From positions 1 to 36,295 of IMG/VR virus record IMGVR_UViG_3300022413_000023: a stretch of DNA of 36,295 nt. One strand, written 5' to 3'. Positions 2,160 through 35,452 of the stretch are shown here, piece after piece. Numbering within the stretch: the first letter of the stretch is position 1; each line of letters begins with the position of its first letter. The DNA comes from a virus. Made by a program: the position numbers and the translations under genes. The notes below the pieces were generated by a model. That model searched no databases. It was not told where the DNA came from and was given only the letters and a program-made list of their open reading frames with translations.

Positions 2160-2572
2160 TGGCCGCAAGGGATGAAGATCTGCGAGCTGTGTACCAGCGT
2201 CTCGTAAAAGAGTTCGGTGGATCCACACCTCGAACCAAGACCGAGCAGCGACGCATCGCCTTCGAAGAGATCCTTCGCAACACGCTGAACGAGCAACGCG
2301 CGAAGAAGATCGATGAACTCAAGTACCCAGGCAAGAAGGCCAAGCTTGTCGACGGTCCGCTTGCCGGTCGCGTCGTGCGAGTCGTCGCGCATGCGCTCGA
2401 CTTGCGCATCGTCGTTGGCCCCGACGGTGGCTTGCTCGATAGCGCGTGCTGCAAGGACTGGATCTACGCGGGCGCCGTGAGCGACTACGTTTTGACCGAG
2501 GATGTCGTCGACGGACATCCCGCGTACGCGTTTCAACCACGCGGCGGTGGCGGTCGCGCGTATCCCAAATAG
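2159..2572 (+). CDS. Hypothetical soluble protein
   Basis: A 137-residue protein. The start is ATG 2159; an in-frame GTG at 2156 directly before it would add one residue. The N-terminal half is helical and charged. The C-terminal half has alternating short strands (KLVDGPLAGRVVRVV, then LRIVVGPDGGLL) suggesting a small barrel. It ends with a Gly/Arg-rich tail (PRGGGGRAYPK) that might contact nucleic acid. Family not recognised. Confidence 0.55.
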   Translation: MAARDEDLRAVYQRLVKEFGGSTPRTKTEQRRIAFEEILRNTLNEQRAKKIDELKYPGKKAKLVDGPLAGRVVRVVAHALDLRIVVGPDGGLLDSACCKDWIYAGAVSDYVLTEDVVDGHPAYAFQPRGGGGRAYPK

Positions 2573-2584
2573 GGAGGAGAACCG

Positions 2585-2809
2585 ATGTCGTTTGTGGTCC
2601 CCAGCTCCGCGCTTTCGACTGCTGTCGATTTGCTCGTCCAACACGAGACACGACTCGCAGCCGACCATCGCGCGGAACGATATGACCTACAGGCCGAGCG
2701 CGAGCTATTGAGCGTGACGCGCGAAGCGATCAAGGAGTGCCAGACGGTACTCGATAAGGCGCGCACAGATGGACGTCACGGGCGCCGACATCGCCGGCAA
2801 CATTCTTGA
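2585..2809 (+). CDS. Small coiled-coil hypothetical protein
   Basis: A 74-residue protein with a strong Shine-Dalgarno (GGGAGGAGA, 5 bases before the ATG). Residues 15-60 form one long charged helix, probably coiled-coil, and the last dozen residues are very basic (RHGRRHRRQHS), suggesting nucleic-acid binding. It is the last gene before the regulatory region at 2810-3076. No family recognised. Confidence 0.6.
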   Translation: MSFVVPSSALSTAVDLLVQHETRLAADHRAERYDLQAERELLSVTREAIKECQTVLDKARTDGRHGRRHRRQHS

Positions 2810-2835
2810 CTTATGTCCGGATTGTTCGCTAGCGT
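2806..2835 (+). promoter_or_regulatory. Candidate sigma70-like promoter
   Basis: TTGACT (2806-2811, 5 of 6 matches to TTGACA), an 18-base gap and TAGCGT (2830-2835, weak -10). The -35 overlaps the stop of the upstream gene, as in the better promoter candidate at 17602. It would drive the DnaA-like gene and what follows. The weak -10 makes this tentative. Confidence 0.35.
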
Positions 2836-2900
2836 CTGTGTGTCGGGTGGCGGTGGTAGGAGCCTAGTCACTGTGTTCCGCTGCATACTCAAGGGCACGT

Positions 2901-2952
2901 CGGTGGTCACCTTTCGTGCGAACTGGCAACGAGCGGCAGCTCGGTGGTGACC
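2901..2952 (+). repeat. Paired CGGTGGTNACC elements (possible operator)
   Basis: CGGTGGTCACC at 2901-2911 and CGGTGGTGACC at 2942-2952 differ at one base. Their GGTNACC cores also face each other as a 7-bp inverted repeat. They lie between the promoter candidate and the DnaA-like gene, where an operator would be expected. No binding protein can be assigned. Confidence 0.35.
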
Positions 2953-3057
2953 ATGCCAGGCAACCTACGCGGACCCCGCTACTCGGCATCCATGAAGAGA
3001 GAGTGCCATACGCGACGGCGGGCGCTGACCTGGTGCAAAGGTCAGCGCCGCGCCTGA
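2953..3057 (+). CDS. Possible 34-residue basic peptide
   Basis: A short ORF starting at ATG 2953 after a GGTGGTGA stretch that could act as a ribosome site. The product is rich in Arg and Lys and has two cysteines. The 3' half coincides with the perfect hairpin at 3021-3049, which can explain the base pattern without coding. It is listed because it may be real in so compact a genome, but support is weak. Confidence 0.2.
   Translation: MPGNLRGPRYSASMKRECHTRRRALTWCKGQRRA
3021..3049 (+). promoter_or_regulatory. Perfect 11-bp stem-loop upstream of the DnaA-like gene
   Basis: GGCGCTGACCT (3021-3031) pairs exactly with AGGTCAGCGCC (3039-3049) around a 7-base loop. No T-run follows, so it is not a classic intrinsic terminator. 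It lies just before the GGAGG ribosome site (3064-3068) of the next gene and could be an operator or an RNA element controlling initiator synthesis. Confidence 0.6.
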
Positions 3058-3076
3058 GCGACCGGAGGTCTCCCCA

Positions 3077-3511
3077 TTGCGAGAACAGGACCGCATGCGC
3101 TGCCCGCACTGCAGCGCCGTGATCGCCATCGTCGTGCACCAAGAACCACTCAGCGACGACGAGCGCACGATCACGGAAGAGATCACAGAGATCGCGTACA
3201 AGTACGGCATGTCGTTGAAGCACGTGCAGGGTCGCGATCAGACGCGAGCAACGGTTCGAGCCCGCGCGCACATTGCCCATCACCTCCGCGACAAGCACCG
3301 GCTCACGCTCAGTGTAATCGGTCGCATCCTCGGCAACCGCGACCACTCGACGATGTCGAATCTGCTCTCCAAACACCCATTAAGGATTGTGGACAACCCA
3401 GGGGATAACTCAGTGGACAACGTGTCGACACCTGCCGACGCCGAAAGTTGCCCACAAGTTGCCGACACGTTATCTACAGATTTGTCCACAGGTGAAGAGA
3501 CGTCGTGCTAG
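3077..3511 (+). CDS. DnaA domain-IV-like DNA-binding protein with N-terminal CxxC
   Basis: A 144-residue protein. Residues 52-97 match the duplex-DNA-binding domain IV of the initiator DnaA: a run of Arg before the recognition helices (RDQTRATVRARAHIAHHL) and the signature-like GNRDHSTM in place of the GGRDHTTV family pattern. There is no AAA+ ATPase part; instead CPHC near residue 9 suggests a small metal site. It should bind DnaA boxes and either start phage replication, recruit host DnaA or compete with it. The last 40 residues are low-complexity and are encoded by the DnaA-box arrays at 3388-3490. TTG 3077 is chosen because GGAGG lies 8 bases upstream; ATG 3095 is the alternative. Confidence 0.75.
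   Translation: MREQDRMRCPHCSAVIAIVVHQEPLSDDERTITEEITEIAYKYGMSLKHVQGRDQTRATVRARAHIAHHLRDKHRLTLSVIGRILGNRDHSTMSNLLSKHPLRIVDNPGDNSVDNVSTPADAESCPQVADTLSTDLSTGEETSC
3388..3490 (+). other. Two opposed arrays of DnaA-box-like 9-mers (candidate replication origin)
   Basis: On the minus strand three 9-mers occupy 3388-3396 (TTGTCCACA), 3400-3408 (TTATCCCCT) and 3412-3420 (TTGTCCACT) at exact 12-base steps. On the plus strand four occupy 3448-3456 (TTGCCCACA), 3459-3467 (TTGCCGACA), 3470-3478 (TTATCTACA) and 3482-3490 (TTGTCCACA) at 11-12-base steps. The two arrays flank a perfect palindrome, GTGTCGACAC, at 3422-3431. Compared with the TTATNCACA consensus the best copies match 8 of 9. Regular spacing, two orientations and an initiator-like gene around them point to an origin. 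Confidence 0.65.
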
Positions 3512-3746
3512 CGACTTGCGCCATATCGACCCCAGTTATGAACAACCCAACAGCAACAAGTTATCTCTCTAAGAGAACTAAGAAATTGTTGTATAGCACC
3601 AGCGGGATGCGTGGCCAGGCGGCTCTGCCCGGTTTGCGGATCACTGTTACCCCGACCCGTTCATGGGTTGGGTTCGACCATGATGCGACGGCCGCGGCGG
3701 TGCCGCTTGGCCACGTCCCTACCTCCAAACCAAAAGGGAGCACGCT
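3512..3746. other. Non-coding stretch, AT-richer, downstream of the DnaA-box arrays
   Basis: No convincing gene. Bases 3536-3600 are clearly richer in A/T than the flanks, contain TCTCTAAGAGA (a short palindrome at 3565-3575) and could be the unwinding element of the neighbouring origin. A G/C hairpin near 3688-3712 (GGCC-GCGGC paired with GCCGC-GGCC) and a GGGAG ribosome site precede the lipoprotein gene. No clear promoter was found. Confidence 0.4.
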
Positions 3747-4145
3747 ATGAAGCAGTACATCATTTTCGCGACTGCGATCCTCTTCCTGACTGGCTGCAGC
3801 ACGAACGAAACAACGGCGCCGGGGGTCGTCGGTATCGATGAAGGTGCGACGCTGCTCCAGCAAGGCGGCGACGCCGACGAGGTCGCGGTCGGCGCCGTCG
3901 AGGACGTGCTCGAGCCGCCGATCGGTGTTGCCGGCTTCCCACGCGTGCCGGGCGACGAGCACAAAGGCGCGGCGCAGCACATGATCGTCTTGACCGGTGA
4001 TCACCAGGGCGAGATCTGGTACTCGTTGCCCGACGTCGAGGCGGACGAACTCGACGACTCGGACGTGATCATCATCGTCTACGACGCAGGCCGCGTTGAG
4101 GAGTCGACCTGGGGCGGAATCAAGGACCGGTTCCGGAACACGTAA
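3747..4145 (+). CDS. Lipoprotein with a short C-terminal W-x-x-I-K tail
   Basis: A 132-residue protein with a type II signal peptide: K near the start, a hydrophobic core (YIIFATAILF) and an LTGC lipobox with Cys17 as the lipidated residue. It should therefore be exported and anchored to a membrane. The mature part is acidic and beta-like. It ends STWGGIKDRFRNT, a tail closely like the ends of the proteins at 4215-5285 and 7876-8691. AAAGGGAG lies 7-8 bases before the ATG, and a hairpin follows the stop. Phage lipoproteins often act in superinfection exclusion or lysis; here that is only a possibility. Confidence 0.75.
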   Translation: MKQYIIFATAILFLTGCSTNETTAPGVVGIDEGATLLQQGGDADEVAVGAVEDVLEPPIGVAGFPRVPGDEHKGAAQHMIVLTGDHQGEIWYSLPDVEADELDDSDVIIIVYDAGRVEESTWGGIKDRFRNT

Positions 4146-4151
4146 ACGGCT

Positions 4152-4180
4152 GGGCTCGTCGGGACCAGCTCGGCGAGCCC
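4152..4180 (+). terminator. Terminator-like stem-loop after the lipoprotein gene
   Basis: GGGCTCGTCG (4152-4161) pairs with CGGCGAGCCC (4171-4180): ten pairs including one G-U, around a 9-base loop. TTCCCCCC follows rather than a true T-run, so intrinsic termination may be partial. The position between two genes fits a terminator or mRNA stabiliser. Confidence 0.5.
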
Positions 4181-4214
4181 TTCCCCCCACTCACTCAACG
4201 GAGGTCGAAAGACG

Positions 4215-5285
4215 ATGCGATACTTACTAGCACTTCTACTGGTCGCGATCCCTGCGACCGCCTACTCGGGCACGATCCACGGTCTCGATTACGTCGTGAC
4301 GCAAGGCACGGCCATCGTCGTCGAGTGCGACCGTCACGAGCCCGGCGACTTCCCTGACATCGACTGGAACTACAACGGCGGCGACGACCAGCGACTCGCG
4401 CGGACGAGCCAGGCGCTCAACAACGGCATCTGGTACTCACCGGACTTCCCGAACGGCGGCGGCGCCTACCGGGGCGCGGCGATTTCCGATGGGCCGAGCG
4501 TCGCGTCGGGGCGCGGTGTGTTTCGCTACCTCGGTGCCAACGGTCAATGGCAACAGGTCGTGATACGGATGCGTGTCGACCCATCAAGGGAACTTGAGAC
4601 GCTGTCGCCGATCGACAACGTCGACTACCAGTTCCCCGACCCACGCGCGGCGGGCGAGTGGATTCACCAGCTCAACTGCCAGAAGACGGTCGAGTTGCCC
4701 GGTGGGCAGACGGGCGTCGTTCCCTACTACGGGGCGCACATGGTGCCCTACGACTACAACCCGACGCCGACGACGTTCGAGATCCAGGAGATGTCGACGG
4801 TCGACGTGCCGGCGCTCTTCGGGATGATGTCCTACGACGACGCGTACGCGTCGACCGCGGCGGGTGCCGCGGCGCTCAACAGCGGCTCGGCCTCGAACCC
4901 GTACGGTCCCAACTCGGTCGAGGGCCAGAAGTATGCCTGGGACAACATGCAGACGATCATGCGTCTGATGGAGACCGGGCCAATCGAACCCGTACCCGGC
5001 GAGGAGGCGACGGTGTCGGTCAGGCTCGACGAGTTCGGCGATTACGTCTGGCTCACCGAGTGGGTGATCCTCGGTCCGATCCTCGGTGACTGGGCGGCGG
5101 CAGCGGAGATCGGGCCGTCGAGCTGGAACGACGACATGGACGCGGCCGTTGGCAACTTCGAGAGCTACATGACGATCACAGACGATCCGCAAGGCCTGTT
5201 CGAGGCGGAGTCGGTGTCGGTCGAGCCCACGAGTTGGAGCGGAGCGAAGGACTACTTCCACCCGAGACACAACCGCTGGCGGTAG
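4215..5285 (+). CDS. Secreted protein of unknown function sharing the W-x-x-[IAV]-K tail
   Basis: A 356-residue protein with a clear Sec signal (RYLLALLLVAIPATAYSG, cleavage probably near residue 19). ACGGAGGTC is 7-8 bases before the ATG. The mature protein is Tyr-, Asp- and Gly-rich with many short strands and two cysteines (about residues 37 and 154) that could pair outside the cytoplasm. The end, PTSWSGAKDYFHPRHNRWR, resembles the tails of the lipoprotein just upstream and of the protein at 7876-8691. No catalytic motif or family was recognised. Exported phage proteins of this size are unusual unless they remodel the host envelope. Confidence 0.65.
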   Translation: MRYLLALLLVAIPATAYSGTIHGLDYVVTQGTAIVVECDRHEPGDFPDIDWNYNGGDDQRLARTSQALNNGIWYSPDFPNGGGAYRGAAISDGPSVASGRGVFRYLGANGQWQQVVIRMRVDPSRELETLSPIDNVDYQFPDPRAAGEWIHQLNCQKTVELPGGQTGVVPYYGAHMVPYDYNPTPTTFEIQEMSTVDVPALFGMMSYDDAYASTAAGAAALNSGSASNPYGPNSVEGQKYAWDNMQTIMRLMETGPIEPVPGEEATVSVRLDEFGDYVWLTEWVILGPILGDWAAAAEIGPSSWNDDMDAAVGNFESYMTITDDPQGLFEAESVSVEPTSWSGAKDYFHPRHNRWR

Positions 5286-7618: not shown

Positions 7619-7858
7619 ATGATCACGAACAAGATGGTCAGGTATGAGGCGCCGGAAGGTGGGACGGGTTGGTTCGACATCACGGAGGTGCTGAGCGTGG
7701 CGCCGTGGAAGGGGCTCAAGGACGAAGCCAAGGAGCAATACCTGATTACGTTCCGTGGACACGAAGAGGGCTTTGGCATGACAGCGCGCCCGCACGCGGT
7801 CCGAGCGAAGAGGACCGAGGCGCTGGAAGCTATCTTCGCACAGCACTTCAACGCGTAA
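7619..7858 (+). CDS. Small hypothetical protein with AAGGAGGCACC leader
   Basis: A 79-residue soluble protein. The start is fixed by AAGGAGGCACC directly before the ATG, the extended ribosome-site motif that recurs through this genome. The sequence has a small beta segment (GTGWFDITEVLSVAPW) and a C-terminal helix. It has no cysteine and no recognised family. Confidence 0.6.
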   Translation: MITNKMVRYEAPEGGTGWFDITEVLSVAPWKGLKDEAKEQYLITFRGHEEGFGMTARPHAVRAKRTEALEAIFAQHFNA

Positions 7859-7875
7859 AACGAAGGAGGCACCCC

Positions 7876-8691
7876 ATGATCGACTTTGCTGCCATCGCGT
7901 TCTCGCTGATCGTGGCGAACGCCGACACGCTGCAGCACCAGGTGGACGTCTGTGGTCCACGCGAGGAGCTGATGGAGTACGCGTCGCCGCTGACCTTCTG
8001 GTCGGAAGCGATCGACGCCCAGCAATGCACGCCGCTCCAGATCGAGAACGGCCAGTGCATCGAGGACGGTCCCGGCCGACAGTCCTTCCGCTACCGCTAC
8101 CAGACCAGCGAGGGAATCAAGGTCCTCGTTGCCCTCCAGGAAGGCGACCAGACCGTCCTCGAGGACCACAGGCAGCTCGACACGCAGCCCTATTGCAACG
8201 TCGGGTTGCTGGTGGAGCCGGGCGCCTATGAGCCGTTCTTCATCACGGTGCTCACGCCACCGCTGAGCTCATCGCTCGTCGGTACGTCGCTCGACATCGA
8301 CGAGTACTGGGAGGCCTACGGCATCAACCGGTGCGGTCCGAACCCGTTCAAGTTCGCCGGCCACACCCCGGCCGAGGCCCACCTCCACGCGGCCCAGGTG
8401 GCGAGCGGTCACTTCCACCTGATGGACCTCCTCACGGGCAACCTGGAATGGCGCCTGATCGGGGCGTGGTGCGAGGGCTATGTCTCCTACCTTCGGAACC
8501 AGAACCTGGGCTTCATGGTGCCGCCCGAGCGCCGGGAGTTCCGCACCTGGCTCTTCGATCAACTGGAGATGCTCGACCCGTTCAACATCTTCGGCGACGC
8601 CGATACGGCGGTCGAGGAGGGCGAGGCGCCACCGATCGAACCCGAGCTCGAGTCGGCGACGTGGACCGATGTCAAGGGGGTGTTCCGATGA
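7876..8691 (+). CDS. Probably exported protein sharing the W-x-x-[IAV]-K tail
   Basis: A 271-residue protein; GAAGGAGGCACCCC sits directly before the ATG. The first 17 residues (MIDFAAIAFSLIVANAD) look like a short signal sequence but lack the usual basic residue, so export is likely rather than certain. Five or more cysteines are spread through the mature part. The C-terminus, ESATWTDVKGVFR, matches the tails of the lipoprotein at 3747 and the secreted protein at 4215, which is the best link between them. No enzyme motif was recognised. It overlaps the next gene by 4 bases. Confidence 0.6.
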   Translation: MIDFAAIAFSLIVANADTLQHQVDVCGPREELMEYASPLTFWSEAIDAQQCTPLQIENGQCIEDGPGRQSFRYRYQTSEGIKVLVALQEGDQTVLEDHRQLDTQPYCNVGLLVEPGAYEPFFITVLTPPLSSSLVGTSLDIDEYWEAYGINRCGPNPFKFAGHTPAEAHLHAAQVASGHFHLMDLLTGNLEWRLIGAWCEGYVSYLRNQNLGFMVPPERREFRTWLFDQLEMLDPFNIFGDADTAVEEGEAPPIEPELESATWTDVKGVFR

Positions 8692-18129: not shown

Positions 18130-18156
18130 GCGCACACGCACCAGGAGGTGCGAGAG

Positions 18157-19032
18157 ATGCCTGAAACGAAGACCGGTCTCGGAGTTCGATCCTTCAAGCA
18201 CCTCAGCCCATCGGACGGCGGCGATACCTGGCAACGCGTTCCGAAGGTCTACAATCGCAACCTCGTCAACGCGGTATGGGCCGACCAGCAGAAGGCGCGG
18301 CAGAGTCGATCGGAAACGTCCGAGGTCCAGGGCCAGGACTACATCGAGCCGCCGTTTGACCTCGACGTGCTCAGCGACCTGTTGCTCGAGAACGTCGACT
18401 TCTTCGCGGTCGTGGATCAGTTCGCGATCGACGTCGCGGGGCTCGGTTTCGATCTCGTCGATCGCGAGCAGCCCGGTGGACCCGCGACGGTTCCCGAGCA
18501 AGGCGAGATCGAACCGACCGCAGCCTCCGACACGATTGCGCAGCAGCAGCGCGCCGAGGCCGAGAGGTTCTTCGACGAGGTCGCCGTCGACTTCAACGGC
18601 AAGAAAATCCCGTTCACCGAGTTGCTCAAGTGCGTTGTGATGGACGAGGAGGCACTCGGCAACAGCGGCATGGAGGTCTCGCGGGACCACACCGCACCGC
18701 CTACGCCCGCAGGCAAGCAACCGATCAACGGCCTTTTCCACATCCCGTTTCGCCTGATGCGCCGTCGGTTGCCGGTCAACAACGAGCCGCAGGGCTTCGT
18801 GCAGATCGGCGAAGGTGGCAAGCCGTTGACCATGTTTCGCGAGTGGCAGTCGGATCCGACCGCCGAAAGTTCACGCTTCACGGTCGCTGAGCTCCAGGGC
18901 CTGTCCGCGCATCGAGGTCGCGACCGGCCGAACGATGATCCGAACGAGACGGACATCGACCGACCAAGAACGAGTTCGCCGACTTCCGTCGGTACCACTC
19001 GAGCGAGGTTCACTACGGCGTGCCGCAGGTGA
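18157..19032 (+). CDS. Portal protein, N-terminal part (reading frame interrupted)
   Basis: CAGGAGGTG 7 bases before ATG 18157 marks a real start. This frame gives the portal N-terminal and clip-side part: LLLENVDFFAVVDQFAIDVA, then GLFHIPFRLMRRR and GFVQIGEGGKPLTMFREW, in the order seen in HK97/PBSX-like portals. From about 18870 the sequence becomes less portal-like, and from 18961 the last 24 residues (RPRTSSPTS onward) are plainly out of frame. The real continuation is in the -1 frame (next feature). The portal forms the dodecameric DNA channel at the head vertex. Confidence 0.7.
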   Translation: MPETKTGLGVRSFKHLSPSDGGDTWQRVPKVYNRNLVNAVWADQQKARQSRSETSEVQGQDYIEPPFDLDVLSDLLLENVDFFAVVDQFAIDVAGLGFDLVDREQPGGPATVPEQGEIEPTAASDTIAQQQRAEAERFFDEVAVDFNGKKIPFTELLKCVVMDEEALGNSGMEVSRDHTAPPTPAGKQPINGLFHIPFRLMRRRLPVNNEPQGFVQIGEGGKPLTMFREWQSDPTAESSRFTVAELQGLSAHRGRDRPNDDPNETDIDRPRTSSPTSVGTTRARFTTACRR

Positions 19033-20048
19033 TCGCTGCGCTCAACGCCGTGTACGGGCAGATCTACTCGGACGCGCGGAACCTTCGGTGGTTCATCAAC
19101 CGCTCGGTGCCCGACTGGCTCGTGATGGTCAAGGCGCAGTCGTCGACGCTTCGCGACAATGCGGGGCGCGAGGAGGTCGACGACTTCCTCGACGAGGTCG
19201 AGGAGCACATGAAGCACCTGGTGCAGGGCGAGGACCACCGCACCATGATGCTGAAGGTGCCGACCGACATCCTGGAGATGGAGTGGGAGGAGCTGACGCC
19301 CGCGCCGAAGGATCAGGACTACCAGGTCTACCAGATCCGGAACCGCGACACGGTGATCCGCGCGTACCGCATGCTGCCGCACCGCATCGGCATCATCGAG
19401 ACGGCGTCGCTCGGAAGCGGCTCGGGCGAGTCGCAGGAGGAGACGTACAAGCGAGCCCAGATCGATCCCCGCCAGGAGATCATCGAGAAGTTCGTCAACC
19501 AGATTCTCGACGATATGGGCTGGGACGCGATCCGGTTCAAGTTCCGCGAGATCGACGTGCTCGACGAACAGCGCGAGATGGGCATGTATACACAGGCGGT
19601 CGCATCGAAGGCGCTCACGCTGAACGAGATGCGCCGCTGGCTGTCGCGGATCGTCAAGGACCAGGACTTCCCCGACTACGACGAGCCGGACTCGGATCCG
19701 GAGGGAACGGCGCAGGCGAAGACGCCGCTCATGCTTCTCGAGCTGCAACAGGGTGGACCGTTGGTGCTACCGTTCGGCGCGGGCATCGAGCCCTTCGCAC
19801 CGCCGTCGCCGAACGGCGAGGGCCAGCCGAGCTTCGGTCAGCTTCGCGCACCGGTTGAGATCGATCGAAGCTACGAGGACATCGCCCGCCTGGTTCGCGA
19901 CGGTCTCGCGACGAAGGTCGAAACGCATAGGCGCCGCTTGTTCGGCGCAGGACGCAGAGGCACGAATGGCCGCCAGGAATCCAAAGCTACCGGCACCGGG
20001 AACGCCGATCGGAAGGTACCGGCAACGACGCCGGTTCGATCCACGTAG
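18939..20048 (+). CDS. Portal protein, C-terminal part (-1 frame relative to the N-terminal part)
   Basis: This frame opens after a TGA at 18936-18938 and carries the rest of the portal: NEFADFRRYHSSEVHYGVP, then RNLRWFINRSVPDWLVMVKA, segments typical of the portal wing and stem. There is no ribosome site before the first usable start (GTG 19020), so independent translation is unlikely. Switching from frame 1 to this frame near 18939-18965 restores a continuous portal of about 630 residues. A sequencing or assembly indel, a true mutation or programmed slippage are possible; I see no classic slippery heptamer. The disordered 3' end overlaps the next gene by 83 bases. Confidence 0.65.
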   Translation, partial: SERDGHRPTKNEFADFRRYHSSEVHYGVPQVIAALNAVYGQIYSDARNLRWFINRSVPDWLVMVKAQSSTLRDNAGREEVDDFLDEVEEHMKHLVQGEDHRTMMLKVPTDILEMEWEELTPAPKDQDYQVYQIRNRDTVIRAYRMLPHRIGIIETASLGSGSGESQEETYKRAQIDPRQEIIEKFVNQILDDMGWDAIRFKFREIDVLDEQREMGMYTQAVASKALTLNEMRRWLSRIVKDQDFPDYDEPDSDPEGTAQAKTPLMLLELQQGGPLVLPFGAGIEPFAPPSPNGEGQPSFGQLRAPVEIDRSYEDIARLVRDGLATKVETHRRRLFGAGRRGTNGRQESKATGTGNADRKVPATTPVRST

Positions 20049-29968: not shown

Positions 29969-30535
29969 ATGAACGCGTCGGCTCCAGCAGCCGTGCGATT
30001 GCCGATCGACGACAAGATTCGTCGCGACGTCGTTGCGCAACAGGTCGAGTCGGTCCTCGAGATCGGCGCGATGCTTGGCGATCGTCTCGCAGCCCTCGCG
30101 GATGTCGTTCCGACACGCATCGCCATCGACAACTTCCAGCCCTACTCTGGCGCCTTCGTGGATCCAGGCGCGGTGTTCCACATCGACGGGTGGGAGTTCA
30201 TCAAGACGCTCCATCCGCAGTCCTTTGACGCCGTCCTTCTGATCGACTTCATCGAGCACCTCTCGACCGACCATGCCCTTGAGTTGCTCGACGAGGCGAA
30301 GCGCGTCGCCGCAAAGCTCGTGATCGTCTTCACGCCCCTCGGCATGCAGCACCGGACGCCTGCGCAGTCGCATCGCGAGTCCGGAGCGCGAGTCGCCGAC
30401 CTTCCACAGAATCCAGGGCAAAAACACGTCTCTGCCTGGGAACACGCCGACCTGCAGGGGGCGGAGTTCATTACCGAGGACTGGACGACGATGGGCGGTC
30501 GGAAGGCGATCTATGCGCAGTGGGTGGCGCCATGA
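29969..30535 (+). CDS. SAM-dependent class I methyltransferase
   Basis: A 188-residue protein with an AGGAGGGCACCAC leader. VLEIGAMLGDRLAAL (residues 29-43) is the S-adenosylmethionine loop, slightly changed from E-x-G-x-G-x-G. FDAVLLIDFIEHLSTDHALE is motif II with the D-x-x-E-H pattern of Methyltransf_11/23 enzymes, and LVIVFTPLG is the next strand. It probably methylates a sugar or small molecule rather than DNA, given the sugar genes that follow. Its stop overlaps the next ATG. Confidence 0.65.
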   Translation: MNASAPAAVRLPIDDKIRRDVVAQQVESVLEIGAMLGDRLAALADVVPTRIAIDNFQPYSGAFVDPGAVFHIDGWEFIKTLHPQSFDAVLLIDFIEHLSTDHALELLDEAKRVAAKLVIVFTPLGMQHRTPAQSHRESGARVADLPQNPGQKHVSAWEHADLQGAEFITEDWTTMGGRKAIYAQWVAP

Positions 30536-31440
30536 GGATCCTCGTCACTGGCGCCAACGGGTTCATCGGCTCGCACCTCTGCCCTGCGCTCGAGGTTCGT
30601 GGGCACCGCGTCCTCGGCATCGACCGAGCCCTTGGCGATGTCGGTGCGCCGCAAGTTGCCGAGCAGATGATCCGGGAGCTGCAGCCCGAGATGGTCGTCC
30701 ACCTGGCCGCGATCTATGCGCGCTACTGGGCCGAGCAGACGCCGCACGACACCGTCGTGACGAACGCCTGCGGTACGGCACTCCTTGCGCGTGCGTGTGC
30801 AGACCACGACATCCCGATCGTCTACGCGTCCTCCAGCGAGGTGTACGGCGATCTCGGTCACGACGAGTCGATCCCTGGCGAGCGGCTGGAGCTGCCGCAT
30901 AACCTCTACGGCCTGACAAAGCGCTGGGGCGAAGAGGCGATCCAACTCTACTGCCGCACCGGCATGTACCAGATCCATCGCCTGTCGATGCCCTACGGGC
31001 CGAATCAACTCGTCGGTCCGGGCAGGGCTGCGCTGCCGACGATGCTCTGGCAAGCGCATCACGGCATGCCGATCCCCGTGCATCGCGGATCGGCGCGTTC
31101 GTGGATCTGGGTGGGCGACCTGGTCGACGGCATGATCACCGCGATCGAGAAGGCACCGTGGCCGTTCGTCTGCAACATCGCCCGCGACGACGACGAGCTG
31201 CCGATGGAGACGATCGCTCGCAAGGCGTGCGCGATCGCTTCGGCCTCGCCCGTAGTCGTCAAGATCATCGATCCGCCCGAGCACGGACAGACGCTCGTCA
31301 AGCGGACGCCTTCACTCAAGCTGCGGCAACTCTACGGCTGGACGCCGACGGTCTCGATCGACGACGGCATGCGCCGCACCTACGAGTACGTCCAACACTA
31401 CGACGCGGAGGGTGTATGGCACGCTCCTGTTCCATCGTAA
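30532..31440 (+). CDS. NAD-dependent epimerase/dehydratase (extended SDR)
   Basis: A 302-residue Rossmann enzyme starting in ATGA overlap. TGANGFIGSHL (residues 6-16) is the G-x-x-G-x-x-G dinucleotide motif; SSSEVYG (100-106) and Y126-x-x-x-K130 (YGLTK) give the Ser, Tyr and Lys catalytic set; RLSMPYGPNQ is the P-Y-G-P motif of sugar-nucleotide SDRs. It should change a nucleotide-sugar (epimerase, dehydratase or reductase) to feed the glycosyltransferases downstream. The exact substrate cannot be read from sequence. Confidence 0.8.
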   Translation: MRILVTGANGFIGSHLCPALEVRGHRVLGIDRALGDVGAPQVAEQMIRELQPEMVVHLAAIYARYWAEQTPHDTVVTNACGTALLARACADHDIPIVYASSSEVYGDLGHDESIPGERLELPHNLYGLTKRWGEEAIQLYCRTGMYQIHRLSMPYGPNQLVGPGRAALPTMLWQAHHGMPIPVHRGSARSWIWVGDLVDGMITAIEKAPWPFVCNIARDDDELPMETIARKACAIASASPVVVKIIDPPEHGQTLVKRTPSLKLRQLYGWTPTVSIDDGMRRTYEYVQHYDAEGVWHAPVPS

Positions 31441-32138
31441 TCACCGCGCGGAACCGCGCGCACGAGCTCCAGCGCACGCTGCAGTCGATCTGCGACCAGG
31501 CGTACGACGTACCGATCCACGTCGTCGACGACGCCAGCGACGACGGGACCGGGGATGTGCTCAGCGCGAGCGACTTCGACTCGCGCGGTCAAGACGTCGC
31601 GCTTCACCGCGTCGATCGTGAGGGCGGTTACCGCAAGAACCCGGCGCCCGCCTACAACCTCGCGCACGAGAAGGCGAGCGGCGCGAAGGTAATCGAGCAG
31701 TCGGCGGAGGTCGTCCACGTGACCGACTGCGTGACGCCGTTGCTGAAGAACTGCAAGCGAGGCCGTGTGGCTTTGGCGACGGTGTTCAATGGCACCGTCG
31801 CTAGTCTCGAGCGGCTCCGTGCCGCTGTCGCGGACGGGAGCTACGCTAAGAGTCCCGACCTGCGACAATTCTACGGGGGCCGCCAGGATTGGATCCGATA
31901 CCGTCGCGTGACACCGGTCGACCAGGGCTTCCAGCAGTACTGCGGCGCCCTTCGTCCGGTGCCGTTCTTCTTCCTGGGTGCGATCCACGCGAAGGACTTC
32001 GACGCGATCGGTGGGTACGACGAGAGCCTCGCGGAACATCCCGACCGGGACCTTGCCGAGCGCCTGTGCGCCGACGGCATCGAGTGGACGTGGTGCGGCG
32101 AGGCCATTGCGTTCCACGTGCAGCACGCGAAGCGATGA
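31416..32138 (+). CDS. Family 2 glycosyltransferase (GT-A)
   Basis: A 240-residue protein; ATG 31416 lies within the SDR gene (25-base overlap). SIVITARNRAHELQRTLQSI begins the GT2 nucleotide-binding fold and VVDDASDDGT is its first acidic motif. A galactosyltransferase-like C-terminal signature follows: FFLGAIHAKDFDAIGGYDE, then E-H-P-D-R-D-L-A-x-R. It should transfer a sugar from a nucleotide donor; no membrane segment, so cytoplasmic. Confidence 0.75.
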   Translation: MARSCSIVITARNRAHELQRTLQSICDQAYDVPIHVVDDASDDGTGDVLSASDFDSRGQDVALHRVDREGGYRKNPAPAYNLAHEKASGAKVIEQSAEVVHVTDCVTPLLKNCKRGRVALATVFNGTVASLERLRAAVADGSYAKSPDLRQFYGGRQDWIRYRRVTPVDQGFQQYCGALRPVPFFFLGAIHAKDFDAIGGYDESLAEHPDRDLAERLCADGIEWTWCGEAIAFHVQHAKR

Positions 32139-32896
32139 TCCGTCACTGCCACATCGCGCGCCCGATGCGCCGCAAGTTCGGGAGCTTCCGCGATCGATGG
32201 AAGTTGGAGTCGTACGGAGGACCGGCCGTGCCGACCGTCTTCTATGGCATGTATGGCGACCCCGAGCTGACGCGTCTTCGTGACCACCGGTCGCTGGCCG
32301 TCGTGGTGTGGTGTGGTACCGATGCGATGCGGAACGCGCGCCGTGCGCTGCTGAAGCGCGAGAACATCCGACACGTGTCGACGAGCGTCTTCATCAGCGA
32401 CACCCTATCGACGCACGGGCTCGAGTACCGCGAGCTCAACGTCGTTGGCTCCGACCTCTCGCACTTCCAACCCGAGCCGCCAGGCGACACGGTCTACGCC
32501 TATGTGTCGCGGCGCAACCCTGCGATGTACGGCGCCGCCGTGCTCAACCAGGTGCGCGAGCTTTTGCCCGATGTGGAGTTCGAGGTCATCGGCTCGCCCA
32601 CGGATCTGTCGTTCCCCGACGGGATTCGTGATGCGTATCGGCGTGCCGGCGTCGGCGTTCGCTTCACACCGCACGATGGCGCTGCCTGCCAGGTGCTGGA
32701 GATGGGCTGCATGGGACGGCGGACCGTCCACAACGGCCGATCCCCTTCTGCAATTTCATGGATCGGCGCCGAGGATGCTGCGAGATCAATCACGTTCGAG
32801 CTTGAGAACCCGGAGCCATACGAGGAGGTCGCTCGGCGGACGCGGGAGTTCGTCGTCGACTCGCCCGAGTGGTTGGAGGTCGAGCCGTGGCAATGA
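32135..32896 (+). CDS. GT-B-type glycosyltransferase-like protein
   Basis: A 253-residue protein starting in ATGA overlap. It has FYGMYGDPE early, then a Rossmann-like second half: VYAYVSRRNPAMYGAAVLNQ, VEFEVIGSP, VGVRFTPHDGAACQVLEMGC, as in the donor domain of GT4-like enzymes (a target-choice loop, then an E-x-x-x helix). It is shorter than usual GT4 proteins. It is likely one step in the glycan pathway. Confidence 0.55.
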   Translation: MIRHCHIARPMRRKFGSFRDRWKLESYGGPAVPTVFYGMYGDPELTRLRDHRSLAVVVWCGTDAMRNARRALLKRENIRHVSTSVFISDTLSTHGLEYRELNVVGSDLSHFQPEPPGDTVYAYVSRRNPAMYGAAVLNQVRELLPDVEFEVIGSPTDLSFPDGIRDAYRRAGVGVRFTPHDGAACQVLEMGCMGRRTVHNGRSPSAISWIGAEDAARSITFELENPEPYEEVARRTREFVVDSPEWLEVEPWQ

Positions 32897-33633
32897 TCTA
32901 CGTCAAGCAGTGGGGCATGAAGCGGAGCGGTACCAACTACCTTCGCTGGATCCTCGAGCAGAACGTGCCCGAGGTGAGCGTCGTCGCGGACATCGGCGGA
33001 TGGAAGCACTCACTGCCGTCGGTCGAGTGGACGCCCGAGCGCGATGCCTGGTGGCCAGAGGGACGACCGAAGCGGCAGAAGACGAAAGCCGAGATCGCTG
33101 GGATCTTCAACGCGTGGGTACACGGCGAGATCCGTCACGCCGTCTGCGTGAAGTCGCCGCTGTCGTGGATCGCGTCGATCGCAAGGCGCGACGGCTTTTC
33201 GCCGCGTCGGATGACACCGAGCACGGCGCTGCGGTACGCGCGTCGATGGAGCGCTGGTGCGCTGGCCTATCGCAAGTTCGTCGAACGTGTCGACATGGCG
33301 GCGCTCGTTCGATACGAGGACGTCTATCCGTTGGAGCGTGGTTCGTTGACCGCGCTATGTGATCTGCTCGCGCTGCGCGCGCCCAACGCGAAGCTGAAGG
33401 CGCCGACGATGCGACTCAAGAACACGTCCGATCTCGAGTCAGGCAAGAGCGCTCTCACGGCCGAGCGGTTCCGAACCGGCTACTACGAGAACGCCCTCTT
33501 TGAGGACGAGCTTGCGCACGTGCGCGACGTGATCGAGGGCGCGATCGATGCGGAGACGATGGTCCGTTTCGGCTACGGCACGATCGATCTGATGAAGGCG
33601 CAGATGGAGCGCGATATGGGGCTCGCGACATGA
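32893..33633 (+). CDS. PAPS-dependent sulfotransferase-like protein
   Basis: A 246-residue protein starting in ATGA overlap. KQWGMKRSGTNYLRWIL (residues 5-21) fits the 5'-phosphosulfate loop (R/K-S-G-T-x-x-L) of sulfotransferases. VCVKSPLSWIASIARRDGF, with K-x-P and R, resembles the 3'-phosphate binding motif, and the late ALVRYEDV-(Y)P strand is common to the family. It would move sulfate from PAPS to a hydroxyl of a glycan. It sits among glycosyltransferases, so the acceptor is probably the sugar chain made by the island. Phage sulfotransferases are rarely reported. Confidence 0.65.
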   Translation: MIYVKQWGMKRSGTNYLRWILEQNVPEVSVVADIGGWKHSLPSVEWTPERDAWWPEGRPKRQKTKAEIAGIFNAWVHGEIRHAVCVKSPLSWIASIARRDGFSPRRMTPSTALRYARRWSAGALAYRKFVERVDMAALVRYEDVYPLERGSLTALCDLLALRAPNAKLKAPTMRLKNTSDLESGKSALTAERFRTGYYENALFEDELAHVRDVIEGAIDAETMVRFGYGTIDLMKAQMERDMGLAT

Positions 33634-34382
33634 AGATCCTGGGCGTCATCATGGCCTACAACGAGGCGGATATCGTCGCGTACGCTGCGCGGTCGCTGAT
33701 CGGTGCCGAGTTCGACGAGGTCCACCTGTTCGACCACGGATCGTCCGACGCGACCATCGATGCCGCTCGCGAGGCGGGAATCGAACACGTCCACCACATC
33801 AAGCGGTCGGTGCCCTTCCAGAGGGTCTGGCCGACGATCTCAAGCTGGATCAACAAGCAGGCGCTCAACTTCGAGTGGGTTGTCTGGCAGGCGGCCGACG
33901 AGGTGCTACGCCCGCCCGAGGACGTGCCATTGCACCGCAGCCACATCGAGCGGGCGGCAGGGAACCGGTATCGCGTGATCGAGCCGAAGATGCGCCTCTA
34001 CTGGCCGAACGTCGCCGACGATCCCGCCGAGCCGGATATCGTGAAGCGACTGCGCCACTACCGCTGGGTGACGTCTCCGATCCGCCACAGCAACCACATC
34101 CCGCGTTGTTGGGAGATCGGTCTCACGGGCGGGATGCCGCGCGGGCTCCATCGCCGACCGAGTCGGTGGGCGAAGAAGGCGGTCCGCATCAACCGGAACA
34201 ACTGGATCCTCGAGCACCGTCCGATCCGTACCGAGGAGCAGGGGCGGCAGAAGGTTTTGAAGGATCGCCGGCCGCAACCAGGGCACCCACAGGACCAGTA
34301 CCGCAAGCTGCGCAAGCGATTGGTTCGCGATGACGAGCGGATCGCGTTGCCGTTCCAGGAGGGTTGGACGTGCCAGAGCTAG
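33630..34382 (+). CDS. Family 2 glycosyltransferase-like protein
   Basis: A 250-residue protein starting in ATGA overlap. ILGVIMAYNEADIVAYAARS and FDEVHLFDHGSSDATID form the N-terminal GT-A nucleotide-binding part with the D-x-x-S-x-D pattern of GT2_4-like enzymes; WVVWQAADEVLRP holds an acidic metal site (D-E). The later part is basic and His/Arg-rich. A second sugar-adding enzyme of the island. Confidence 0.65.
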   Translation: MKILGVIMAYNEADIVAYAARSLIGAEFDEVHLFDHGSSDATIDAAREAGIEHVHHIKRSVPFQRVWPTISSWINKQALNFEWVVWQAADEVLRPPEDVPLHRSHIERAAGNRYRVIEPKMRLYWPNVADDPAEPDIVKRLRHYRWVTSPIRHSNHIPRCWEIGLTGGMPRGLHRRPSRWAKKAVRINRNNWILEHRPIRTEEQGRQKVLKDRRPQPGHPQDQYRKLRKRLVRDDERIALPFQEGWTCQS

Positions 34383-35452
34383 TCCTCACGCGCGCGACGA
34401 CGTACGAGTATATGGGCTACTCGTTCGTGCGCGGGAAGGTCAAAGAGGTTCCGATGATCGTCTACCAGGACGGCATTCGGAAGGGCTGGGCCAAGGATCC
34501 GAACCAGCACATCGACTTTGTCGACGGTCCGATGGTCCGTGCTGCGCGCCCTGGTACGACGGTCCCGGTGATGCGCGACTGCGGCCTCGGTGACGTGCTC
34601 ATGGCATCAATTCCCCTCCGCGACTTCTGCTATCGGAACAAGCACGTCAACGTCGTCTACGGCGTGTCGCCGCAGTACGTCGGCCTGTTTGAAGGCCTGA
34701 GCTTCTGTAAGGTCGCGCCGATTCCAGAGATCCGTGGTAGTTTCCAGTTCGGCGTGGACCTGCGCGGCTTCGTCGAGCGCGACAAGAAGGCGCGGAAGCA
34801 GGACCGTATCGACATCTTCTCTCGAGCGCTCAACAACGCGCCGCCTACCTCGTACGACTTTCCCCTCCAGATCACAGCCGAGCATCGGGATCACGGTCGT
34901 CACTACCTGGGTGCCTCCAGGGACGACCGCCCGGTGCTTGGCTTGGTGATGCGTGCTTCGCTGGCGAACCGTAGTTGGGGGATCGACTACCTCCAAGCGA
35001 CTTACCGGCTCGCCGACTCGAACGGTTGGCGCGTCATTCTGATTGACGGTCGCGAACGCCGGAGCCCAAGCGATCCGCCGTGGCGCGACTTCTTCCCGGC
35101 GACCGCGATCGACCTGTGCGGCAAGCTCTCGATGACCGACTTGCGCGACGTCGTCGCCGCGTGCGACTGCATTCTGTCGCCCGACACCGGCCTCGTTCAC
35201 CTGGCGGAGGCCGTCGGAACGAAGTGCGTCGCCTACTTCACCACGGTACCGCCCGAGCTCAGGGTCGGACACTACCGACACGTGAAGGTGCTCTATCCAC
35301 GCGGGCAGCTCCCGTGCCTAGGTTGTATGCATAGTCCGACCTGTGGTCAGCCGGATCCGAAGCCGTGCGCGGTCCTGTCGACGCCGCAGATGGCTTGGGA
35401 TGCGATCGAAGCGCACTGTGACCACACGGCCGACGTCTGCGGGGTACTGTGA
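34370..35452 (+). CDS. GT9 heptosyltransferase-like glycosyltransferase
   Basis: A 360-residue protein. GTG 34370 is chosen because AGGAGG lies 7-8 bases upstream; a TTG at 34364 would be too close to it. It has the GT-B layout: DCGLGDVLMASIPLRDF (G-x-G-D near the N-terminus), and in the second half the GT9 signature ILSPDTGLVHLAEAVGTKCV with the sugar-nucleotide site D-T-G-x-x-H. Several late cysteines (CLGCMHSPTCGQPD) are typical of many GT9 proteins. In bacteria it adds heptose to LPS core; here it may add a heptose or other sugar to the virion or host glycan. Confidence 0.75.
   Translation: MPELVLTRATTYEYMGYSFVRGKVKEVPMIVYQDGIRKGWAKDPNQHIDFVDGPMVRAARPGTTVPVMRDCGLGDVLMASIPLRDFCYRNKHVNVVYGVSPQYVGLFEGLSFCKVAPIPEIRGSFQFGVDLRGFVERDKKARKQDRIDIFSRALNNAPPTSYDFPLQITAEHRDHGRHYLGASRDDRPVLGLVMRASLANRSWGIDYLQATYRLADSNGWRVILIDGRERRSPSDPPWRDFFPATAIDLCGKLSMTDLRDVVAACDCILSPDTGLVHLAEAVGTKCVAYFTTVPPELRVGHYRHVKVLYPRGQLPCLGCMHSPTCGQPDPKPCAVLSTPQMAWDAIEAHCDHTADVCGVL

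Follow-up and report, generated by a model that had tools for sequence, protein, structure and literature searches.

The outermost positions of the Escherichia coli replication origin oriC are occupied by the strong DnaA boxes R1 and R4, and its unwinding stretch is melted by the filament formed on the R1 side. The boxes in the left half of oriC are oriented leftward and those in the right half in the opposite direction (PMC5742627). In lambdoid phages, the origin is situated in the middle of gene O, where repeated sites are followed by an AT-rich tract (PMC7466680).

In the present study, we analyzed a linear virus record of 36,295 bp (IMG/VR record IMGVR_UViG_3300022413_000023, referred to as the window), in which the last third of a gene for a DnaA domain-IV-only protein is occupied by two arrays of DnaA-box-like 9-mers (Table 1). 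With a probability that we place at roughly 0.6, the 3' end of this gene and the 85 bp behind it constitute a compact oriC-like phage origin inside a replication-initiation gene, which is opened by host DnaA.

Similar to E. coli oriC, the element comprises two divergent tandem groups of boxes with the strongest boxes outermost and, as in its mirror image, the AT-rich stretch is located on the side to which an array points and is T-rich on the expected strand. The oriC-like layout, with opposed arrays and a putative unwinding region, had been pointed out in a preliminary description of the window, and it held in the present analysis. The element differs from oriC in being half as long, in having seven boxes, in lying inside a phage gene, and in being a putative origin. 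Another difference, which counts against an origin, is that the AT-rich stretch is further off, 45 bp past the nearest (outer) box, in the direction in which the right array of four boxes is oriented. The window also resembles the lambda gene O origin in that repeats and an AT-rich tract are present in or adjoining a gene for a DNA-binding protein and coincide with a part of low structure in that protein; however, its sites are DnaA boxes and not O iterons, the protein is a DnaA domain IV and only a putative initiator, and the stop codon precedes the AT-rich tract.

Table 1. Features of the putative origin region in the window.
Feature	Position	Strand	Basis or remark
Gene for 144-aa DnaA domain-IV-only protein	3077..3511	+	ORF, Pfam, model, Foldseek
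DnaA domain IV, residues 27-99, with GNRDHSTM recognition loop/helix	3155..3373	+	Pfam, model, Foldseek
Left array, three DnaA-box-like 9-mers at 3388, 3400, 3412	3388..3420	-	12-bp steps
Long imperfect inverted repeat from the opposed arrays	3398..3492	.	Arms of 36 nt, 75% complementary
Palindrome GTGTCGACAC between the arrays	3422..3431	.	Both strands GTGTCGACA, two mismatches from box
Right array, four DnaA-box-like 9-mers at 3448, 3459, 3470, 3482	3448..3490	+	11/11/12-bp steps
Putative duplex-unwinding element	3536..3595	.	Lowest duplex stability of any 60 bp in the window

Box arrays and the AT-rich stretch

The consensus used for the boxes was the host-type TTRTCCACA. The seven 9-mers with their spacings and strands, as well as the intervening palindrome, were all found at the coordinates given in the preliminary description. 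In the left array, which is in frame and codes for VDN-GDN-VDN, the box at 3388 (TTGTCCACA) matches the consensus exactly and is followed by TTATCCCCT and TTGTCCACT. The right array consists of TTGCCCACA, TTGCCGACA, TTATCTACA, and a second exact TTGTCCACA at 3482. The left boxes point left and the right boxes right, with the two perfect boxes outermost, and the arms of the inverted repeat that results from these opposed arrays extend from 3398 to 3433 and from 3457 to 3492.

The two perfect array boxes are the only exact matches to TTRTCCACA in the 36,295 bp, in which 0.13 were expected. Sites with at most one mismatch number 11 in the whole window, and five of these are confined to 103 bp, whereas 60 first-order Markov shuffles never placed more than two such sites within 130 bp. 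A cluster of boxes beyond chance and an outward directionality with strong outermost boxes, as expected of an oriC-like element, are thus both present; the imperfection of five of the seven boxes counts against an origin.

The preliminary description noted AT-richer DNA after 3536, which proved to be stronger than claimed: no 60 bp in the window are less stable than 3536-3595, with a stability z of -5.8 vs. -3.8 for the next-lowest stretch and a GC content of 32% vs. 64% for the sequence. Its minus strand is T-rich (25 A and 16 T on the top strand in 3536-3596), and the repeat continues into it in degenerate form, with box-like sequences at positions 3536 and 3556. As judged from sequence stability, an AT-rich putative unwinding element of the oriC-like type is therefore present beside the boxes. 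DnaA-trio motifs were considered in this stretch and are not claimed.

Considering its compactness and high density, the box cluster may instead be a decoy, which titrates host DnaA in a datA-like manner and/or is accompanied by competition of the phage protein at the chromosomal oriC, such that host replication stops; a domain-IV-only protein is plausible as a dominant-negative competitor for boxes. We regard this as unlikely because titration requires neither an ordered divergent layout nor adjacent DNA of the lowest stability, seven boxes per phage genome are few before replication, and similar arrays occur inside the initiator genes of other phages, as described below.

DnaA also acts as a transcription factor, and the array is located about 250 bp upstream of the start of the next gene, a lipoprotein gene at 3747. 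The boxes may accordingly be operators at which either the phage protein or host DnaA controls the domain IV gene itself or the lipoprotein gene. However, this reading has a low probability: there are no DnaA boxes upstream of the start of the domain IV gene, a scan of positions 2500-4300 found no sigma-70-like promoter, and the unstable 60-bp stretch is left unexplained. The autorepression considered in the preliminary description is unlikely for the same lack of upstream boxes, those present being at the 3' end of the gene.

The tail encoded by the arrays

The suggestion that the coding tail is shaped by the DNA sites rather than by the protein was supported. When residues 100-144 were recoded with synonymous codons, five or more one-mismatch boxes were obtained in 1 of 20,000 trials. 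The plus-strand boxes occupy frames 2, 1, 0, and 0 of the gene, namely, three reading frames, which indicates that the repeat is kept as DNA. The codon log-likelihood was +0.26 bits per codon for the gene body vs. -0.29 for the tail, which therefore resembles non-coding DNA, and the array-encoded residues 104-144 (with the array peptides IVDNPGDNSVDN and SCPQVADTLSTDLSTG) are disordered in the AlphaFold2 model.

These results also bear on the simplest explanation of the 9-mers, in which they have no function as DNA and the codons of a low-complexity disordered C-terminal tail resemble DnaA boxes by accident. Repeated VDN-type tripeptides do yield some boxes through coding alone; however, the rarity of such clusters after synonymous recoding, the use of three frames on the plus strand, the non-coding score of the tail, and the unstable stretch adjoining it make an accident very improbable.

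The DnaA domain IV protein

The gene at 3077..3511 starts with TTG and is preceded by a GGAGG Shine-Dalgarno sequence at 3064-3068. Residues 37-95 of its product matched Bac_DnaA_C in Pfam with an E-value of 1.9e-8 and 34.6 bits, above the curated cut-off of 31.5 bits, and its GNRDHSTM sequence conforms to the (R/K)DH(S/T)T signature of this family. In an AlphaFold2 model built on three sequences, residues 27-99 showed pLDDT values of 82-88, the array-encoded residues were below 50, and the N-terminal 26 residues were poorly ordered. The best Foldseek matches were structures of DnaA domain IV on DnaA-box DNA from Mycobacterium tuberculosis and E. coli (3pvp and 1j1v), with an rmsd of 1.3-1.4 A over 67-68 columns and a probability of 1.00 at modest E-values of 0.014-0.4. 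The identification of the protein as DnaA domain IV, which was proposed earlier, is accordingly upheld by a Pfam match above the cut-off and a predicted fold that superposes on box-bound structures.

In an ungapped alignment with the E. coli protein, the residues D433, H434, and T436 of E. coli domain IV are presumably kept. The same alignment presumably places arginines at the equivalents of R401, R405, R407, and R432, and a glutamine at that of R399.

No AAA+ ATPase (domain III) was found in the 144 residues, and Bac_DnaA_C was the only family to pass its Pfam cut-off; the protein is therefore not a full DnaA, and lacks the part of DnaA that oligomerizes and melts DNA.

Arrays in other phages

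A pattern scan for tandem boxes, which worked on short loci, detected three exact tandem DnaA boxes at 11-13-bp steps in at least 120 viral contigs, and the variant with 12-bp steps in 72. The tandem arrays (L005-L124 and L134-L191) are mostly one-directional, sometimes comprise more than ten boxes (L149), and are biased toward DNA of low stability. Across 148 viral array loci, the distance to low-stability DNA was shorter than from random positions (KS p 2e-36), a bias that could partly reflect a general tendency of the arrays to lie between genes.

Of ten long ORFs examined that overlap arrays, four matched phage replication-initiation families: L005:9479-10477 (O-like), L047:1107-2006, L059:3531-4562, and L092:9600-10415, from four unrelated viral contigs. 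Ten further overlying ORFs, mostly shorter, included one portal gene and no initiator, and the resulting proportion of recognizable initiators, only 4 of 20, counts against an origin. In each of the four initiator genes, three to four exact tandem boxes at 11-12-bp steps are located at the linker after the N-terminal domain, and the arrays exceed what synonymous recoding yields in exact boxes; in L059, the stretch of lowest GC lies directly behind the array. The encoded peptides are VDNSVDNSVDK, VDNSVDKSVDN, VDKSVDKPVDK, and SCPQFVHNLSTNCPQNVH, the last of which is coded by four copies of TTGTCCACA at 11-bp steps. They resemble the two array peptides of the window because the DNA sites are alike, and homology need not be implied.

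The window thus shares with these four loci the tandem boxes at 11-12-bp steps and linkers of the VDN-repeat or SCPQ type. It differs from them in that they encode O-like, DnaD-like, or other initiators that lack a DnaA domain, and in that their arrays are essentially one-directional and composed of exact boxes. In our partial coverage of the literature, no description of DnaA boxes within the initiator genes of phages was found, which is weak evidence of novelty. The feature probably represents a phage origin of a recurrent, apparently undescribed type.

Boxes were also noted in two named phages. Salmonella phage epsilon15 (L276:1947) has one exact DnaA box within a DnaT-like replication gene, and Arthrobacter phage Seahorse (L277:49-92) has four tandem boxes, three exact and one mismatched, near the right end of its genome, with similar matches in related Arthrobacter phages.

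Domain IV genes in other viruses

Searches with the terminase and domain IV in viral contigs and named phages revealed no close relative of the phage or of the gene, and a domain IV search of GTDB genomes found none either. The collections searched contained no relative that combines this gene with the array, and this counts against an origin. Two other searches gave matches that were rejected: BLASTN of the array region against plasmids returned Caballeronia and Mycolicibacterium sequences without a box cluster, which we regard as coincidences, and a pattern combining the DHST motif with tandem boxes gave two viral matches, neither of which had a domain IV gene.

A broader search for viral DnaA domain IV was sampled at 80 loci, 79 of which have stand-alone domain-IV-only genes, encoding up to about 290 residues. 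The window protein, as a stand-alone Bac_DnaA_C, resembles these phage domain-IV-only proteins (PF08299, phrog_27829), examples of which, in Sulfitobacter phage phiGT1, Rhizobium phage RHph_N28_2, and ctOK67, are located in or near replication modules. The flanks of 28 non-redundant domain-IV-only genes include genes for primosomal, replication-initiation, and O-like proteins and DnaD-like helicase loaders, and these neighbors suggest that domain IV, as a stand-alone protein, is a component of phage replication modules.

Unlike in the window, DnaA boxes form no cluster within or close to the phage domain-IV-only genes examined. A cluster of at least three near-boxes in 130 bp was found at none of the 80 sampled loci, 48 whole records of such loci contained no exact tandem pair, and box clusters were also absent from seven examples in named phages and from one phage contig without annotation. 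A de novo search for iterons near other domain IV genes gave no consistent repeats. Conversely, Bac_DnaA_C was absent from all 50 whole phage records with box arrays. The co-occurrence of a domain IV gene and a box array is therefore unique to the window in what was sampled, and, for a 36-kb fragment that contains one of each, we estimate the chance of their being within a few hundred bp of each other at roughly 2%. Immediately upstream of one stand-alone domain IV gene (L257:952-1485), two near-boxes, both TTTTCCACA, lie in tandem with an 11-bp step; this was the only other sampled gene of this kind with such a pair, and a replisome-organizer-like ORF is located further downstream.

These counts weaken the suggestion in the preliminary description of a self-contained origin. 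In the form considered here, the domain IV protein would be the initiator on its own boxes and, in a lambda-O-like manner, recruit a phage helicase loader without host DnaA. The gene and boxes lie within 100 bp of each other, the DHST motif is intact and the four arginines named above are presumably kept, and related domain-IV-only genes often have O-like, primosomal, or DnaD-like genes nearby. Nevertheless, we consider such an origin unlikely: the boxes are of the plain host type, arrays and domain IV genes were otherwise found apart (0 of 50 and 0 of 80), and arrays occur with non-DnaA initiators. Furthermore, the protein has no AAA+ ATPase and little sequence beyond domain IV for binding a loader, and no loader was recognized in the fragment.

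Proposed mode of action

Since unrelated phage initiators carry the same boxes and stand-alone domain IV genes are usually without them, host DnaA is the simplest candidate for a shared reader of the boxes. We infer that, at an origin of this type, host ATP-DnaA would seed on the perfect outer boxes (3388 on the minus strand and 3482 on the plus strand) and fill the weaker inner boxes, resulting in two divergent filaments. The right filament would face 3536-3595 and melt this AT-rich stretch, much like the filament on the R1 side of E. coli oriC, after which the host helicase would enter, possibly with a phage loader encoded outside the fragment.

Without an ATPase, the domain IV protein cannot melt DNA in the manner of DnaA. 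Its role on these boxes is probably that of an accessory factor or a competitor; the protein would most likely bind them without ATP and tune initiation by seeding or competing with host DnaA. A more tentative proposal is a split initiator, to which the phage contributes the DNA-binding part and the host the ATPase part. The ATPase-free protein might then, with similarly limited likelihood, read its own gene as an origin or licensing site and time the action of host DnaA or a phage loader.

If opening of the oriC-like element by host DnaA is the correct reading, many phages exploit the host initiator through miniature oriC elements in the linkers of replication-initiation genes, and the phage in the window goes further by encoding the DNA-binding domain of DnaA itself at the array. 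This would provide a signature by which phage origins could be recognized in sequence, a natural test of DnaA domain IV without its ATPase, and a 240-bp oriC-like element.

Gene context in the window

Genes are cut at both ends of the window; the record is therefore a fragment. A GC-skew change at the site, which the preliminary description named as a check, was not observed as a lasting one; there was a shallow local dip only, in an incomplete fragment in which the local genes are nearly all on one strand. No helicase, primase, or loader was recognized when early ORFs of the incomplete record were scanned, which counts against an origin. Searches for tRNAs and against Rfam gave no match.

The window encodes terminase, portal, Mu-F-like, and capsid proteins as well as two DNA methyltransferases. 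Three early ORFs (3747-4145, 4215-5285, and 7648-8691) have in common the C-terminal motif [ST]W..[AIV]K..F, in the forms ESTWGGIKDRF, PTSWSGAKDYF, and SATWTDVKGVF, and the motif was found near the C-terminus of no other window ORF of at least 50 codons; the first two of these ORFs have lipoprotein- or signal-peptide-like starts. The portal protein is apparently encoded in two overlapping ORFs, 18148-19032 (a weak phrog_12 match) and 19020-20048 (Phage_portal), which suggests a frameshift or an assembly error. In the late block at 30520-35452, the translations resemble a sugar epimerase, a glycosyltransferase, and a sulfotransferase, which are unusual beside head genes.
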